From positions 1-44,242 of IMG/VR virus record IMGVR_UViG_3300023094_000001: 44,242 nucleotides of DNA. One strand, given 5' to 3'. This DNA is from a virus. A program made the position numbers and the translations under genes. A model generated the notes under the pieces. It was not told the origin of the DNA. It was given only the letters and a program-made list of their open reading frames with translations, and ran no database searches. Positions within the stretch are counted from its first letter, which is position 1. Every line of letters begins with the position of its first letter. Positions 4,110 through 42,749 of this stretch are shown one piece after another.

Positions 4110-5096
4110 TTAGTTTTTGCTGATGCCGTAGACGCGGATGGTGCCCTGCGCCTTGAAGTTACTGCCGTCATCCCAGAGCAACCGGAAGCCAGAGCAGGCT
4201 GCCCCTATATATACGCCGCCATAGGTACTGCCTTGATAAGTCCCTGCGGCCGACTGGGCAGCACCGGGGCCGAACACGTTTTTAAGGGCCGCCGCAGCCT
4301 GCGCGTTGAAAACAGTCAGTTGAACATTCCCACCAACTCCGACCGTTGCGTAATTCCCTGAGACGCCTAGTTTATTTACGGCCGTACTAGAGGTGCTATT
4401 TACAACGTTGTAGTAGTTGCTGGCACTGTCGACTGCCCCTGCGTTGGCGAATCGCAGTGATAGCGCCGTAGAACTGCTGGTGGTGTTGATCCCTTCGACG
4501 ACGATTTCAAAATCGTCAAACGAAGGATTCGCGCTGAAGATCGTCAAGAAGTCGATGGCCGCCACGGCAGTGACGCTAAAAGGTGGCGTAACCGGCACCC
4601 GGCTCTGATTGGCCGGCGCCCCGGACAGACCGACCGTCCACGACGCGAAAGTCCCCGAACCCTTGGTGTGCGTGACGTCTACCGTGAGCGTACCGGTGCC
4701 GCTATTGTACGCGGTGATACTGCCGGCCATCACATTGACACCGTTGGCGATGGTCACGAACTGGCCGACGCCGAAAAGCTTGCCGGTCTGGATCGTCAGG
4801 GTCTTTGAACCTGTGCCCACTGTCAGGCTGGCGGTCGACGTGGCCCCGGACCCTGGCGCGTTGACCGCAGTGCTGGCTGCCGCGCTGGCCGTAGCCGCAT
4901 CGGCATCCGCCGCCGCCGCCGCCGCGTCCACCCCCGCCGCGAGCGCGTTGGCCTGAGTAGCGTAGGTATTCATTTCCGGCACCATCGCCTTCTGCGCCAG
5001 CACCATGGCCGATGCCTTGCTGCTGAAGGTTGGTGCGTCGTCGGTAGCTGGATCTGGTGCCGGCGGCAACAGCGTAATCGTTTGCGTGATGCTCAT
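4110..5096 (-). CDS. Tail fibre / receptor-binding protein candidate
   Basis: A 328-residue protein. The N-terminal ~75 residues contain a long Ala/Asp-rich helical segment (AAAAAADADAATASAAAST), typical of a trimeric fibre shaft. The rest is rich in Gly, Ser, Thr and Asn and probably beta-structured, ending in IRVYGISKN. It overlaps the upstream tail gene by ATGA. Being the last large tail gene before the lysis cassette, it is the best candidate for receptor recognition. No enzymatic motif is visible. Confidence 0.75.
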   Translation of the reverse strand: MSITQTITLLPPAPDPATDDAPTFSSKASAMVLAQKAMVPEMNTYATQANALAAGVDAAAAAADADAATASAAASTAVNAPGSGATSTASLTVGTGSKTLTIQTGKLFGVGQFVTIANGVNVMAGSITAYNSGTGTLTVDVTHTKGSGTFASWTVGLSGAPANQSRVPVTPPFSVTAVAAIDFLTIFSANPSFDDFEIVVEGINTTSSSTALSLRFANAGAVDSASNYYNVVNSTSSTAVNKLGVSGNYATVGVGGNVQLTVFNAQAAAALKNVFGPGAAQSAAGTYQGSTYGGVYIGAACSGFRLLWDDGSNFKAQGTIRVYGISKN

Positions 5097-25488: not shown

Positions 25489-25627
25489 CCTTCTCTTCTT
25501 TTTCTTCTTCATCTTCCTTCTTCAAAACTAACCCCTGTTATACAGGGGTATAGTTAATTGAAGATGAAAGGATGAGTATTTGCCTTCTTCACTTCAACCT
25601 TCTTCACGAATCTTCAATTGAAGAAGG
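25489..25627. repeat. Iteron-like noncoding region, candidate replication origin
   Basis: This A+T-rich gap between two convergent genes contains the 9-mer CCTTCTTCA three times directly (25516-25524, 25583-25591, 25598-25606) and once inverted (25619-25627). It also has a 35-base stretch with 34 pyrimidines (25489-25523) and a 12-bp palindrome CTTCAATTGAAG (25612-25623). The primase-helicase gene ends at 25643. Repeated short sites, a purine/pyrimidine-biased tract and A+T-richness beside a replication gene are typical of phage origins. Confidence 0.5.
25524..25549 (-). terminator. Terminator after the primase-helicase gene
   Basis: On the minus strand ACCCCTG-TATAA-CAGGGGT forms a 7-bp stem followed by TAGTTTT. 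It lies in the convergent gap downstream of the leftward primase-helicase. Read rightward, the stem lacks a clear T-run, so it mainly suits the leftward transcript. Confidence 0.65.
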
Positions 25628-25642
25628 TAATTATTTGCACGT

Positions 25643-27811
25643 TCAATCCTGCGACTTGAGGGTGTAGCGGCTTTGGTCGTCCTTCTGAATGTAGCCCAAG
25701 GCTTCCAATTTCTCGATCGCTTTGCCCGCATCACGCATCCGATTGTCCACTTTGCCGCGTTGCTCCATGTGTGGGACGGTGGCGCGGCGCAGATCCTCGT
25801 AGTGCATGTCAGCGTCCAGATCCGCCGCCTCGGTGAGCACCCGCAGCACGGCGCGGTGGTCGTCCTTGAGACCGTCCTTGGCGTCTTCCACAACGGCCGC
25901 ACCGGTGCTGTGCTCGACCACGCAAGAGGTGATAGGGTCGCCGTCCTCGTCGATGCCGATCTGGACGACGTGGAGCTTGAAGCCCATGGCCTTGCCCTCG
26001 TCGCCGTCCTTGGCCTTGGACAGCTGGATACTGCGACCCAGCAGCTTGGACCGGGTGACCTCGATCTCGACGTCCATAGCGCCCTTGAGGCCCGACCAGC
26101 CGCGCGCGCCCCGCGATGCGTCCTTGCCGGCATGGTGGACAAGCAGCACCATGGCGCCCGTCATCTTGTTCAGGCCTCGGCAATGCGCCAGCACCTTGCC
26201 CATGTCCTCGCCCGAGTTCTCGTTCGCGCCGGCAGACGACTGGGCCAGGGTATCGAGCACGATGATATCGGCGCCGCCCCAGTCCACCACCTGCTTGGCC
26301 AAGGCCTTGACGTCGTCCTTTAGCAACATGCTGGGCACGTCGCCGATAATTCCGAAGGGCACATCGGCCAGGTCAACGTCGTGGTGCTGTGCGTAGGCCT
26401 TGAGACGGCCGCGTGCGCCCATAAGGCCCTCGGCCACCACCAGCACCACCCGGCCCTGCTTGGTACGCATGCCGCGCCACGGCAGGCCCCGCGCGATCGA
26501 GCCGAGCATGTCCATGGCGACGAACGACTTGCCGGCCGTCGACTCGCCGTAGATCATGCCCACCTGGGCCTTGGGCAACAGCCCTTTGATGATCCACTGC
26601 TGCGGCGGGCCACTGGCAAACTCGCCCGCCCCGCTCACCGCGAACTTCTCACGGCGTACCGGGGATAGGTCACGGGCGGCCACGTCGGTGCCGTCTTCTG
26701 GCCCCAAGTCGTCAAAATCATCATACGGATCAGACGCTTGCACTTCGGCAGGGGCGGCCACCTCGGCCGTGCCGCCGAGCAAATCTTCTATCTCGGCATC
26801 GACGGGTGCTGGCGCCGGCTCCAGCTGCTCGAAGTCGTCGCGCAGTTCGTCGTCGATCTCCTTGGCGCGGGTGGCGCCGGCCCGGCAATGATCCTTCCAG
26901 AGGTAGCGCAGGGCCTTGTCGTAGTCCTGGCGCCGGTGGTCGAGCGCAACTTCCATGGCGTGCTCGTTGGCCTCCAGGATGGACAGCATCTGCTCGCGCG
27001 TGCACCCGGCTTGCGCCAGGGCGATCGAGGTGGCGAACAGCGCATTGGAACGATCGGCACCTGGTTCTGGCCCTTCAGCGAGGAAGTTGGCCGCGTGCGG
27101 CGGCAGGTCCAGGTCCTCCAGATCGGGCAGGTCCAAGGCCGAGAGGAGCGGGGGCAGGTGCAAGTCCTCGACCTCAGCCTTGGTGCGGGCGCGCCGGTAC
27201 TTCGCGGCCAGGCCCTCCAGCACGCCCGCCGGCGCCGGCCGCACGTCGCGGCGCGATCCGTCAACGCGCTGCCCTGTGATGGTTACGAACCGGGCCTGTG
27301 TGCCACCGTATATCTCGATGCCGCGCTCGTGGTTGATGATGTCCGCGTCGACCCCGGCGCGCACCATGACGCGCAGGCCGGTGCCCGACGGGCTGACCTC
27401 GGTGTAACTGTCCAGCTTGGCGATCACCTCGGCGGCCCACGGCGCGATCTCGCCGGTGGAGGCATCACGGCAATGGTCGAGGTCGACACCGGCCAGCTCG
27501 CCAGGTGCGAACACATCGGCGCCTGCGCCTTGGGCCTTCTCGCCCGTAACCAGGTAGCCCACGCCGGCGAACTTATCCGGGTTCTGCAGGTACACGGCCA
27601 TGGCCCGGTGGAAGACGGACCACCCTTTCGTCGACTTCGAGGACAGGCCATAGGCCGGCTGATCGGTACGATGTGGGATCTTGTCGTACTTGCGCTTCTT
27701 CTCGTTCCAGACGGCCCGCCACGGCGCCCAGCGCGGGGTGTCGAGCATGGAGGCGGGGATACCGTCGACGGTAACGGGCAGGAGGGTTGGCAGTTCGGGT
27801 TTGGTAGCCAT
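25643..27811 (-). CDS. Primase-helicase (AEP primase domain plus RepA/DnaB-type AAA ATPase)
   Basis: A protein of about 722 residues. The N-terminal ~200 residues resemble a bifunctional primase-polymerase: GVDLDHC (D110, D112), SPSGTGLRVMV and EIYGGTQARFVTITG. Residues ~400-600 are a RecA-like helicase of the RepA family (AAA_25): Walker A YGESTAGKS (421-429), Walker B IIVLDTL (516-522) and LLVHHAGKD. The C-terminal ~70 residues resemble a winged helix. The ATG overlaps the upstream methyltransferase stop as TGATG; a GTG one codon earlier is possible. It primes and unwinds phage DNA for the family A polymerase. Confidence 0.9.
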   Translation of the reverse strand: MATKPELPTLLPVTVDGIPASMLDTPRWAPWRAVWNEKKRKYDKIPHRTDQPAYGLSSKSTKGWSVFHRAMAVYLQNPDKFAGVGYLVTGEKAQGAGADVFAPGELAGVDLDHCRDASTGEIAPWAAEVIAKLDSYTEVSPSGTGLRVMVRAGVDADIINHERGIEIYGGTQARFVTITGQRVDGSRRDVRPAPAGVLEGLAAKYRRARTKAEVEDLHLPPLLSALDLPDLEDLDLPPHAANFLAEGPEPGADRSNALFATSIALAQAGCTREQMLSILEANEHAMEVALDHRRQDYDKALRYLWKDHCRAGATRAKEIDDELRDDFEQLEPAPAPVDAEIEDLLGGTAEVAAPAEVQASDPYDDFDDLGPEDGTDVAARDLSPVRREKFAVSGAGEFASGPPQQWIIKGLLPKAQVGMIYGESTAGKSFVAMDMLGSIARGLPWRGMRTKQGRVVLVVAEGLMGARGRLKAYAQHHDVDLADVPFGIIGDVPSMLLKDDVKALAKQVVDWGGADIIVLDTLAQSSAGANENSGEDMGKVLAHCRGLNKMTGAMVLLVHHAGKDASRGARGWSGLKGAMDVEIEVTRSKLLGRSIQLSKAKDGDEGKAMGFKLHVVQIGIDEDGDPITSCVVEHSTGAAVVEDAKDGLKDDHRAVLRVLTEAADLDADMHYEDLRRATVPHMEQRGKVDNRMRDAGKAIEKLEALGYIQKDDQSRYTLKSQD

Positions 27812-28992
27812 CACAGGAGATCTCCAAGGTATTCAAATTGCGCGCGCGTCTCGGCTATGTCGGCATACTCGGGAGTCAGCTCAATGCCCGTCATGACAAA
27901 GCCCTCTTGCAAGCCGGCCACGATGGTAGAACCGCTGCCGGCGAAGATATCGAGCGAGCGGCCGCCGGGCGGCGTCACCAGGCGCAGCAGGTAGCGCATC
28001 AGCGCCAGCGGCTTGACCGTGGGGTGGGTGTTGCCCGGACCGCGATCGGACTTGCTGGCCTTGGCGCAGTAGAAGAAGCGGGCGTTGCTTCCTGATCCAC
28101 CGTAGCCTTGATCTTCCGCCGGGGGTTTCTTGTACTTTCCGTAGATCTCGTTATGTACCTCGCCATCTCGGTTGCGCTGTACTGCGACGCCGTCTTTCGA
28201 TTCCGGGAACGCCGCCAGCACCTCGTCGCTGCCGTCGTGGATCAGATTGGCGGGCCAGCGGCCCTTGTTGCTGTCGAAATCGGCCGATGCGCTTGGCTCG
28301 CCGTACGTATTGCCCGCAGATCGCATGCTGTTCGACAAGCCGTACTCGGTTCGCTCGCACCCTTCCACTCGGCAACCGTCGATATTCAGCGCCCCCGTGC
28401 CATGCGCCAGCACGTTGGCCGCCACTGTGCCTATCAGCGGCTTGCGCGCCACGCATATCGGTTCGTGTGCCGGCTTCAGCGCGGTGCCCCAGCCATCCCA
28501 CTGGCGGGCGGCGTCGGTGGCTGGTGCAGTGAGCATAGTACCCTCTGGGGCAGAGAAGTACGTCACCCCGTTACCTGGCTTGGCTTTGGCCGCGTGCCGG
28601 GCTTTTGCGGCCGAATTGATTCCGGGGCCAATCACCTCGCGCTCAGCACCCGCGGCCTTATCAATCGCCTTGCTCACGTCCAGCGACTTTGGGAAACCCG
28701 AACCATACACCCACATAATTTGATCGCGAATTTCGAAACCGGCGTCTTCAATGGCGCAGGTCATGCGGTGGTAGGTGCGCGAACCGGAGAATGCCAGCAG
28801 GTGACCGCCTGGCTTTAGTACACGCAAGGCCTCGCGCCACATCTCAACGCTATTGGCGATGCCGGAAGCGTCCCAGGCTTTGCCCATGAAGGCCAGCTCG
28901 TACGGCGGGTCGGTGACGATGGAGTCGAAGGAAGAATCGGGGAGGGTCTTGAGCACGGCCAGGCAGTCGCCGCGAAGAATTTCATAGGACAT
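27811..28992 (-). CDS. DNA methyltransferase, DPPY type (N6-adenine or N4-cytosine)
   Basis: A 393-residue enzyme. Motif IV DPPY (28-31) comes first, and the AdoMet-binding motif FAGSGST (~350-356) comes near the C-terminus, the beta-class order. A long target-recognition region lies between (~100-320), and GNTHPTVKPLALMRYLL precedes motif I as usual. DPPY more often marks N6-adenine enzymes, but N4-cytosine cannot be excluded. No partner restriction enzyme is seen, so it is an orphan that probably protects phage DNA. An AGGAAAT site precedes the ATG, and a long structured leader lies upstream. Confidence 0.92.
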   Translation of the reverse strand: MSYEILRGDCLAVLKTLPDSSFDSIVTDPPYELAFMGKAWDASGIANSVEMWREALRVLKPGGHLLAFSGSRTYHRMTCAIEDAGFEIRDQIMWVYGSGFPKSLDVSKAIDKAAGAEREVIGPGINSAAKARHAAKAKPGNGVTYFSAPEGTMLTAPATDAARQWDGWGTALKPAHEPICVARKPLIGTVAANVLAHGTGALNIDGCRVEGCERTEYGLSNSMRSAGNTYGEPSASADFDSNKGRWPANLIHDGSDEVLAAFPESKDGVAVQRNRDGEVHNEIYGKYKKPPAEDQGYGGSGSNARFFYCAKASKSDRGPGNTHPTVKPLALMRYLLRLVTPPGGRSLDIFAGSGSTIVAGLQEGFVMTGIELTPEYADIAETRAQFEYLGDLL

Positions 28993-29012
28993 TTTCTATT
29001 TCCTGAAAGAAA

Positions 29013-29099
29013 AAGCCTATAGGATTGCGCTCTGACTGCCAAGTCCCGGACCAATCCCGGCGAGCGCGCTCCTATAGGCTTACTGGTTATTGACTTGGC
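29013..29099 (-). ncRNA. Structured leader (candidate pseudoknot / attenuator) of the methyltransferase mRNA
   Basis: In the leader, AAGCCTATAGGA (29081-29070) pairs perfectly with TCCTATAGGCTT (29024-29013). Inside, GCGCTC (29067-29062) pairs with GAGCGC (29032-29027). TTTTT follows directly, making a terminator. Upstream GCCAAGTC (29099-29092) can pair with GACTTGGC (29045-29038) in the loop. The order a-b-a'-b' allows either an H-type pseudoknot or competing folds. A small local hairpin GACT-TGGC-AGTC uses the same loop. The likely transcript starts near 29101. Confidence 0.6.
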
Positions 29100-29107
29100 G
29101 GACTCAT

Positions 29108-29135
29108 GATATACCTCAAACTTTACTTTACGCAA
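29108..29135 (-). promoter_or_regulatory. Promoter for the methyltransferase / primase-helicase transcript
   Basis: On the minus strand TTGCGT (29135-29130) and TATATC (29113-29108) are separated by 16 bases. ACTTGCGTA here resembles half of the operator palindrome seen at the other promoters. It lies directly after the terminator at 29146-29167 and before the structured leader. Confidence 0.65.
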
Positions 29136-29145
29136 GTGAAATAAG

Positions 29146-29167
29146 AAAAAGCCCGCACGCGGCGGGC
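29146..29167 (-). terminator. Rho-independent terminator
   Basis: On the minus strand GCCCGC-CGCGT-GCGGGC is followed by TTTTTC. It ends the leftward operon that finishes with the gene at 29189 and insulates it from the methyltransferase promoter. Confidence 0.88.
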
Positions 29168-29188
29168 CTTGGGGTGGGTGACGGGGGT

Positions 29189-30540: not shown

Positions 30541-30848
30541 AGTACGATCGCCGCCACGGCCATCACTACAGCGCGCCGCCAAGCGGCCAGCCTGGCATCA
30601 TCCCCTGCGTCGTCCGCTACCCGCACCGTAGCCGAGAAATGCCCGTCAGCCAAGGCCCAACGGCCGGCCATGATGCAGCCCGACGTGCCCATGTCCAGAT
30701 CGATATCGAACTGGACCAGCAGAGTCGCGGCGGCGTCGTTCTGTTCCAGCGGATTCCACCCCGTGCGCGGGTCGAAATCGCGTGGACCTCCCCAACCTTT
30801 TGCCGCCGCTACCTTCTCCAGCAGCTCCCTGTCTTCTGGCGCGCTCAC
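30537..30848 (-). CDS. Phage ABA-sandwich-like protein (DUF2591 type)
   Basis: A 103-residue protein. It opens with an acidic helix and FDPRTGWNPLEQNDAAATLL, then FSATVRVADDAGDDARLAAWRRAVVMA. The plan of an N-terminal 'P-x-ND' segment followed by a C-terminal helix matches small DUF2591 phage proteins. A second copy of this general type is encoded at 42124 in the opposite arm. It overlaps genes on both sides by ATGA. The family's role is unknown. Confidence 0.6.
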   Translation of the reverse strand: MSAPEDRELLEKVAAAKGWGGPRDFDPRTGWNPLEQNDAAATLLVQFDIDLDMGTSGCIMAGRWALADGHFSATVRVADDAGDDARLAAWRRAVVMAVAAIVL

Positions 30849-31195
30849 AGATCACCCCCGACGCCCATCGAGCTGCGCACCTTCGGCGACACCAGGTCGT
30901 TGCGCGGGATACCGAATTGCATTTCGATCTCTTTGGCGCGCGCCAGCGGCACGTAGCCCTGGCGCAGCCACTGGCCCACGGCCTGGCGGGTGACGCCCAG
31001 CGCCACGGCCAGTTTGTTCCAGCTGCCGGCCTTCTCGACGGCCTTGTCCACCGCGCTGGCGGCGCGGGGCGTCGGCTCGTCGGCAGCGAGCCATTCGGCG
31101 ATGGTTGCGTACTTGGTGTTGACCGCCTTGGCGAAGGCGCGCGATCCGCCGGCGTAGGCGATGGCCATTTGCAGGCCGGTTTGTTTCTTGGGCAT
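30845..31195 (-). CDS. Cro/YdaS-like DNA-binding regulator
   Basis: A 116-residue protein with two helix-turn-helix-like parts. Residues ~8-37 (AIAYAGGSRAFAKAVNTKYATIAEWL) and ~54-85 (AGSWNKLAVALGVTRQAVGQWLRQG) both follow the YdaS/Cro pattern of a helix, a short turn and a recognition helix. The C-terminal AKEIEMQFGIPRNDLVSPKVR is also typical. It is the second gene of the leftward early operon, close to the divergent control region, and is the best candidate to bind the repeated CAAG-N6-CTTG operators. Confidence 0.8.
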   Translation of the reverse strand: MPKKQTGLQMAIAYAGGSRAFAKAVNTKYATIAEWLAADEPTPRAASAVDKAVEKAGSWNKLAVALGVTRQAVGQWLRQGYVPLARAKEIEMQFGIPRNDLVSPKVRSSMGVGGDL

Positions 31196-31208: not shown

Positions 31209-31877
31209 TTAAATTAAATCGTAAACTGCGTTGATGTGATCGGCCCACTGGGTAAAAGCGCGCGCGATACCGGGGTACGTCTCGGCCCTGAGTTTCCACC
31301 GGTCGTCGGATGGGCCGAGCTTGTTCTGGCCGCTGTCGGTCTGATTCGACCAACGCTCGACCATCTTGCCGCTGCCGCGCGGCCACTCCACGATCCGGCC
31401 GGCGACGCGCTCGGCAGGGTCCGCCACGAGGCGCGGCAAGTTGCGCGTCCAGAGACCCGTCTTCTTGCTGGCGTCGTCGCCGAATTCATAGGGCTGGACG
31501 TATTGCGTCGGTTTTCTGATCTCGGTGCTGATGATGCCCACCGGGTTTTCCAGCGCGATGAAGGGGATCTGGTCTTGCTCCAACAGCAGCGACCGGACAA
31601 AAGACAGCGCCGCCGCCGTACCGGCGCCGCCGAAACGCACGTGGCCCTCGCGAGTGTTCCAGTGGATGCCCGAGCCGCACAGGTAGGTGCAGTCGGGGTG
31701 GAAGATCGCCAAGTCCCAGCCGGCGTGCAGCACGTCCCGGACGTCGCCCTTGTAATGCGGGCCGGGCACGTCGGTCTCCAGCAGATCACACGACATGGCG
31801 TCATGGCCAGCGGCCAGAAACGCGTCGCGGCTGCGGCCCGAGTACTCCATCCCAATTAAGACTTTCAACTTGCGCAT
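31209..31877 (-). CDS. C5-cytosine methyltransferase-like protein
   Basis: A 222-residue protein starting MRKLKVLIGMEYSG at 31877. It has a motif I-like start (GMEYSGRSRDAFLAAGHDAMSCD), a motif IV-like FHPDCTYL with the likely catalytic C63, and ENPVG (110-114) in place of the ENV motif. Compared with full C5 enzymes (300+ residues) it lacks an obvious target-recognition domain, and HPDC replaces the usual PPC. Phage proteins of this short form are widespread and their activity is uncertain. It is the first gene leftward of the divergent promoter region. Confidence 0.8.
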   Translation of the reverse strand: MRKLKVLIGMEYSGRSRDAFLAAGHDAMSCDLLETDVPGPHYKGDVRDVLHAGWDLAIFHPDCTYLCGSGIHWNTREGHVRFGGAGTAAALSFVRSLLLEQDQIPFIALENPVGIISTEIRKPTQYVQPYEFGDDASKKTGLWTRNLPRLVADPAERVAGRIVEWPRGSGKMVERWSNQTDSGQNKLGPSDDRWKLRAETYPGIARAFTQWADHINAVYDLI

Positions 31878-31903
31878 TTCGGTTCCTTTCACTGACAAGC
31901 GCC

Positions 31904-31932
31904 AGCATATACGCAAGCAGCGCTTTACGCAA
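31904..31932 (-). promoter_or_regulatory. Leftward early promoter
   Basis: On the minus strand TTGCGT (31932-31927) and TATGCT (31909-31904) are separated by 17 bases. Two CTTGCGTA boxes (around 31926-31934 and 31910-31918) overlap it and resemble half of the operator. It would drive the operon from the C5 methyltransferase-like gene to 29189. Confidence 0.65.
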
Positions 31933-42489: not shown

Positions 42490-42749
42490 CCGGCGTCATC
42501 AAGCAGAAGTTTTTCGCCGCGCCGGCGGCAAAGCCTCGCGTCCACACGTGCAGCGGCGGCCAGATGCCCGAGCGCCCGGAGACAGACAGCCCCGGCTATA
42601 AGCGGGTCGTCGCGCGCGGCTGTCTCGGCACCACCGACTACTGGGGTGAGGCCGATTGCGTCTACGGCTGGACGTGCGAGGAGTGCCCGGTGCTGCGCGA
42701 ACAGTGGCGCTTGGAAGACCAACAAAACGAAGGAGAACCACCGTGCTGA
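42480..42749 (+). CDS. Small Cys-containing protein
   Basis: An 89-residue protein overlapping the previous gene by 10 bases. Six Cys residues (HTCSGG, RGCLG, DCVYGWTCEECP, and a terminal Cys) suggest a zinc-binding fold. Basic N-terminus. Function is unknown. Confidence 0.6.
   Translation: MSVAGVIKQKFFAAPAAKPRVHTCSGGQMPERPETDSPGYKRVVARGCLGTTDYWGEADCVYGWTCEECPVLREQWRLEDQQNEGEPPC

Follow-up and report, generated by a model that had tools for sequence, protein, structure and literature searches.

The late leader of phage lambda, pR'-tR', consists of a promoter and then a terminator, and gives a short RNA until Q-dependent antitermination. To our knowledge, no 5'-end pseudoknot is known in lambda tR'. 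In P4 immunity (CI RNA, seqA-seqC), RNA-RNA pairing in the leader ends transcription early and so keeps the replication genes off (PMC4825925, where Q of lambda is also outlined). IsrK of prophage Gifsy-1 has its own promoter and terminator and occurs as a short form and as a read-through mRNA form (PMC4825925). The put RNA of HK022 is a structured part of early phage transcripts, located at their start or close to it, and influences termination; its 5'-most bases are paired (PMC9378689). In the structure proposed for the guanidine-IV riboswitch (GGAM-1), the pseudoknot or kissing interaction takes in the terminator stem, and stretching of a linker is suggested to keep the outer terminator pairs from forming (PMC7736828; PMC11611296).

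Here we describe a leader on the minus strand of a virus record (IMGVR_UViG_3300023094_000001, positions 1-44,242); this whole stretch of 44,242 nt is called the window below. By its sequence, the leader is of the IsrK or P4 CI type in that promoter-like boxes and a stem with a U-tract lie ahead of a phage replication operon. The likeness to IsrK is that of a prophage RNA with its own promoter and terminator, which are predicted ones in the leader; IsrK acts in trans on translation, and its read-through serves an anti-repressor gene. In P4, a processed antisense RNA pairs in trans, whereas the complementary pair here is inside one unit of about 90 nt that includes the terminator. As in lambda pR'-tR', a promoter and then a terminator would give a short RNA, as predicted for the leader. 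No Q-like protein was found among the searched window proteins, which covered part of the genes.

The put RNA comprises about 70 nt with two stem-loops and no terminator of its own, lies downstream of early promoters, and makes polymerase resistant to downstream terminators. The leader, in contrast, has one long terminator stem, an internal hairpin, and a predicted pseudoknot, and it ends in the terminator. The guanidine-IV riboswitch shares with the leader a pseudoknot that involves the terminator hairpin, and a similar explanation by strain has been proposed there. However, the partner in the riboswitch is the loop of a separate, kissing 5' hairpin with a conserved sequence, and its ligand is guanidine. 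In the leader, the partner is the free, single-stranded 5' end, the setting is phage replication operons, there is no sign of a ligand, and no Rfam match was obtained, assuming that Rfam 15 holds GGAM-1.

Architecture of the leader in the window

The features of the locus are listed in Table 1. From 5' to 3', the promoter-like boxes are followed by A, B, the 5' arms of P1 and P2, the 5' strand of hairpin H, B', the 3' strand of H, A', the 3' arms of P2 and P1, and the U-tract. The G+C-rich stem of 12 + 6 bp ending in U5 spans positions 29081-29010 (minus strand) and is located between the promoter-like boxes and the first gene, as an intrinsic terminator or attenuator would be. The start of the methyltransferase gene is about 20 nt beyond the U-tract. 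The predicted position +1 (29099) is the first base of A, six bases past TATCAT. The promoter-like box, the 12 + 6-bp stem with TTTTT, A, and A' in the loop had been described in the first-pass annotation, and all of them are present on the minus strand; hairpin H and the candidate helix B:B' had been missed.

Table 1. Positions of the leader elements and neighboring features in the window.
Feature	Positions	Strand	Remarks
Cro/YdaS-like regulator gene	30845-31195	-	Separated from the leader by several small genes and then the terminator at 29170-29148
Intrinsic-terminator-like site of the upstream operon	29148-29170	-	Terminator scan: 9-pair stem and T-run; just ahead of the leader promoter
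Promoter-like boxes	29106-29135	-	TTGCGT (29135-29130), 18 nt, TATCAT (29111-29106); weak by consensus; arrangement common to homologous leaders
A	29092-29099	-	GCCAAGUC (DNA letters GCCAAGTC); the transcript is predicted to begin with these 8 nt; pairs with A'
B	29082-29087	-	ACCAGU (DNA ACCAGT); directly 5' of the terminator stem; pairs with B' (moderate support only)
P1, 5' arm	29070-29081	-	Terminator stem, 12 bp; fold and covariation
P2, 5' arm	29062-29067	-	6 bp; fold and covariation
Hairpin H	29046-29060	-	CCGG (29060-29057), 7-nt loop, CCGG (29049-29046); kept in 7 of 7 leaders
B'	29050-29055	-	AUUGGU (DNA ATTGGT); within the H loop; complementary to B
A'	29038-29045	-	GACUUGGC (DNA letters GACTTGGC); in the terminator loop; complementary to A
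P2, 3' arm	29027-29032	-	Fold and covariation
P1, 3' arm, and U-tract	29010-29024	-	P1 arm 29024-29013, U5 29014-29010; fold and covariation
DNA methyltransferase gene (N6_N4_Mtase)	27811-28992	-	PF01555, E 2e-26; PHROG DNA methyltransferase; first operon gene in the window phage
Primase-helicase gene	25643-27814	-	PF13481; PHROG primase/helicase families; constant neighbor across homologous loci

The predicted fold of the transcribed strand has a z value of -2.6, and 3 of 200 shuffles fold as well. In the window, the 19-nt segment at the 5' end is more complementary to the loop than in any of 5000 shuffles; the same test gives p = 0.0044 and 0.0004 in the homologous leaders of L231 and L233, respectively. 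A second copy of the leader was not found in the window.

The leader promoter is weak by consensus and was missed by a promoter scan. The pattern TTG-N21-TANNNT-N6-GCCAA, which was composed after seeing the sequence, has a single match in the window, whereas shuffles lead one to expect 0.01. The same arrangement recurs before the other leaders, in which TTG is followed by 21 nt, TANNNT, and 6 nt (7 nt in L233) to GCCAA. The start codon lies about 20-25 nt past the U-tract in the homologous leaders, leaving no room for another promoter. One further match to the promoter pattern (L313) is unrelated. Two other candidates were dropped: a six-codon frame, ATGAGTCCGCCAAGTCAATAA, because its ATG, which L003 lacks, is placed behind the -10 box but still ahead of the predicted +1, and sequestration of the ribosome-binding site, the likely site being 3' of the stem.

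Covariation in homologous leaders

Seven distinct leaders were found in eight metagenomic phage records, as L187 and L213 carry one identical leader. A search with the methyltransferase led to L003 (protein 68% identical), whose leader has the same layout with letters in P1 and P2 that differ from those of the window on both arms. Pattern searches led to L187/L213, L224, and L227, and a search with the primase-helicase to the divergent L231 and L233. A covariance model made from the seven leaders recovers each of them as a full-length match. In the seven-row alignment, 97.2% of the cells are paired and 15 pairs are changed on both sides, which none of 500 shuffles reaches, although the seven sequences are related. 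The divergent part of the family, three types and one paralogue, is a small sample. When the alignment is slid as a control, the paired share falls to 21-46%.

The bulk of the covariation signal comes from P1/P2, the arms of which co-vary at 11 of 18 pairs. In two leaders, different letters restore A:A': GCCAACCUUU with AAAGGUUUGGC, with one bulge, in L231 and GCCAAGCCU with AGGCUUGGC in L233. For B:B', L231 has a perfect helix (CCAAUUA with UAAUUGG), L227 one that is offset by a single pair, and L233 one with a bulge; three of the six columns have two-sided changes. B:B' is likely to be a real second helix. It is less certain than A:A' and P1/P2, since this helix is short and the energies of its own and swapped duplexes overlap. 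The first-pass annotation had named a lack of compensatory changes in homologues as grounds for giving up its proposal; such changes are present in P1/P2, in A:A', and probably in B:B'.

The RNA is better conserved than its surroundings; for example, the window and L213 are 82% identical in the RNA, but the 50 nt ahead of it are only 39% and the 300 nt behind it 51% identical. L213 and L231 show the opposite, with 96% identity over the 50 nt ahead of the RNA and 56% within it. Since the RNA and its flanks differ in conservation in both comparisons, the RNA looks like an exchangeable cassette with a border close to its own first bases, judging from a few genomes.

Some of the records contain further elements. 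The L224 record has a leader at both ends (37-128 and 42519-42609), and tandem repeats of a terminator/-35 unit, GGGCTTTTTCTTTTGTTGCG, are found upstream of the leader on its minus strand at about 130-230. In L233 (IMGVR_UViG_3300030732_000036), positions 4791-4935 hold a second pseudoknotted terminator leader of similar layout. This second leader (4826-4930) has TTGACA and TAGGAT boxes 17 nt apart, a 10-bp A:A', a 22-bp stem, and a GAGA-capped hairpin H, and precedes an ORF of 150 aa and then terminase genes. It has no clear B', the GAGA cap being in place of the B' loop.

Genes downstream of the leader

The first gene after the leader is the methyltransferase gene in the window, L003, and L233, and an unrelated ORF of 66-116 aa in L213/L187, L231, and L227/L232; the small ORF thus replaces the methyltransferase gene as the first gene in four of the eight phages. 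In L224, where the sequence is covered only to the start of the first gene, this start differs from that of the methyltransferase. The small first ORFs (L231:4804-5004, L232:4804-5004, and L213:8853-9203) gave no PHROG match. Their starts look similar, such as MPSIFIPAP and MPSIYTVIPAAP.

The primase-helicase gene, on the other hand, follows the leader wherever the downstream sequence was read, and in every case the leader precedes the replication operon by 20-25 nt and points the same way. Since the first gene varies and the primase-helicase is constant, the leader, judging from gene order, is tied to the promoter of the replication operon and not to the methyltransferase. Both genes had been proposed as targets; the primase-helicase remains a candidate, while the link to the methyltransferase is lost in relatives with other first genes. 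Sensing of AdoMet thereby loses its sole argument. Nothing points to this or any other ligand, and no Rfam match to the SAM (AdoMet) riboswitch classes or to any other riboswitch was found at the leader.

Two other features of the window should be noted. A second DNA methyltransferase gene (31209-31904, minus strand; PHROG 757, E 1e-53) is located upstream of the Cro/YdaS-like regulator gene. A cluster of direct and inverted TTCTTCA/TGAAGAA repeats at 25490-25635, including a 26-nt imperfect inverted repeat at 25577-25633, has a plus-strand ORF on one side and the end of the primase-helicase gene on the other; the equivalent region of L233 is also rich in repeats (GCTTCATTTGCTTCA). These repeats may serve as an origin of replication or as a terminator for both directions.

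Searches for known families and further relatives

The covariance models of Rfam 15 gave no match in the window at the gathering score. Only sub-threshold, chance-like matches were obtained at the window leader, and none up to E 0.5 at the leaders of L231, L233, and L227. One weak ctRNA match is upstream of the L227 leader, outside it. With the window and L233 leaders as queries, no leader match was found in the phage collection, and plasmids gave no match to the window leader. The covariance model found no leader in 294 genomes of the Massilia arenae family; its one match in 62 genomes of the Massilia arenae genus (L325) was rejected because the P1 terminator alone was matched. Relatives of the primase occur in 15 bacterial genomes (36-53% identity), and the regions around eight of them are without the leader. 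Among the pattern matches, L002 is repeat-rich coding sequence, and most other A...A' matches are also coding or repeat sequence; the true A...A' gap is 42 nt. The first-pass annotation knew of no described RNA with this layout, which agrees with the absence of such a family from Rfam, and none was found in the literature, the search being largely confined to open-access papers. The leader is probably a phage RNA that controls termination and represents a new RNA family.

Predicted folding order and possible mechanism

A, B, P1, P2, and H consist of disjoint bases, and A, A', B, and B' share none with P1 or P2. In a classical attenuator, the antiterminator uses bases of a terminator arm. The leader is therefore not a textbook terminator/antiterminator swap. 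The first-pass annotation had offered either a pseudoknot or such a switch; the A:A' pairing on which the proposal was built holds, and the classical swap does not. Because both terminator arms stay free when A pairs with A', termination could be affected only through the order of folding, through geometry, or through a partner.

Growing 5' prefixes were folded with nested structures only, a procedure that ignores pseudoknots and kinetics. In all eight RNAs examined, the A:A' fold is the most stable once A' is out, until 12-16 nt later, and the P1/P2 terminator takes over by 16-20 nt past A'. This predicted order suggests that the pseudoknot competes with or strains the terminator. At full length, P1/P2 is far more stable in the predicted folding, so the pseudoknot may also be without effect on termination.

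The leader of about 90 nt may well be a cis-acting, pseudoknotted intrinsic terminator (attenuator) that starts the phage replication operon; this is the likeliest reading, and our confidence in it is evenly balanced. Polymerase would start at the first base of A, and A:A' (and B:B') would form when A' emerges. After another 12-20 nt, enough of the P1 3' arm would be out to form the terminator hairpin. B adjoins the base of P1, and B' lies at the opposite end of that stem; from this geometry, the pseudoknot would either fray the terminator base or be pulled apart by the terminator, and retention of B:B' should fray the base or hinder completion of the terminator. The share of cases in which the pseudoknot wins would set how many polymerases enter the first gene and the primase-helicase gene. 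Candidate triggers are a protein, translation, another RNA, or a ligand.

Alternative readings

The main rival is a small RNA acting in trans, in which the terminated RNA of about 90 nt, with a paired 5' end and a terminator 3' end, would target either the nascent leader from which it derives or different RNAs, in the style of IsrK or P4 CI RNA. The stable terminated RNA could indeed be the real product. The promoter-like boxes and the terminator of its own, the near-complete base pairing that includes the first nucleotide, and the P4 and IsrK precedents (PMC4825925) are in line with such an RNA, as are the re-coded pairing letters in a kept layout (L213 and L231), expected if specificity matters. 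The constant spacing and orientation ahead of the replication operon, however, fit it poorly, and there is no obvious trans target, since GCCAAGTC/GACTTGGC occur elsewhere in the window at chance level (4 matches; 13 of 100 shuffles have as many). We consider this reading possible but rather doubtful. An unregulated insulator, that is, a strong terminator behind a weak promoter with constant low read-through, in which the 5' pairing merely stabilizes the short RNA, would explain why the terminator is strongly favored at full length and stands in tandem with that of the upstream operon. A:A', H, and B:B' would be superfluous for a plain terminator, however, and the loop is the best-conserved part of the clade-I leaders, which makes the insulator unlikely.

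Compact pseudoknots with terminators are common among riboswitches, and several non-homologous first genes lie downstream, as might be expected if the pseudoknot were the aptamer for AdoMet or another small molecule. Against this, few unpaired letters are conserved across the divergent leader types, Rfam gave no riboswitch match, and the downstream genes have no metabolic theme; a riboswitch is thus quite improbable. A hairpin acting at the DNA level, for example in replication or packaging, would account for a long inverted repeat beside replication genes, and the complementary strand folds as well (z = -4.2). The helices on the transcribed strand, however, contain ten G-U pairs and no A-C (a hand-curated count that includes some pairs more than once, as they were inherited in common), and these G-U pairs, which would be A-C mismatches on the other strand, fit the transcribed strand only. 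The covariance model scores 108-110 bits on the leader strand (clade I), compared with 23-32 bits for opposite-strand matches. The G-U bias and the strand scores, together with the U-tract and the promoter-like boxes, argue for RNA rather than a DNA hairpin, and we give the latter hardly any credence.

As related phages retain the knot although its letters change, the leader is in all likelihood a genuine RNA brake or switch of a kind not described before. The pseudoknotted attenuator could, more tentatively, stand for a new class of leader RNAs. In such RNAs, the terminator loop would be knotted with the 5' end, and the terminator would be strained or delayed with both of its arms left free. 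In this somewhat speculative extension, the RNA would be a mobile cassette from the predicted +1 onward, and its re-coded letters would give version-specific, perhaps self-recognizing, control of replication.

With about 90 nt and natural compensatory variants, the leader is directly testable by in vitro transcription. It offers a compact natural test of how a terminator could be controlled by a pseudoknot with which it has no bases in common, a question still to be answered for the guanidine-IV riboswitch. If the attenuator reading is true, an RNA family absent from Rfam would join the small number of phage leaders in which premature termination is believed to regulate replication or early genes.
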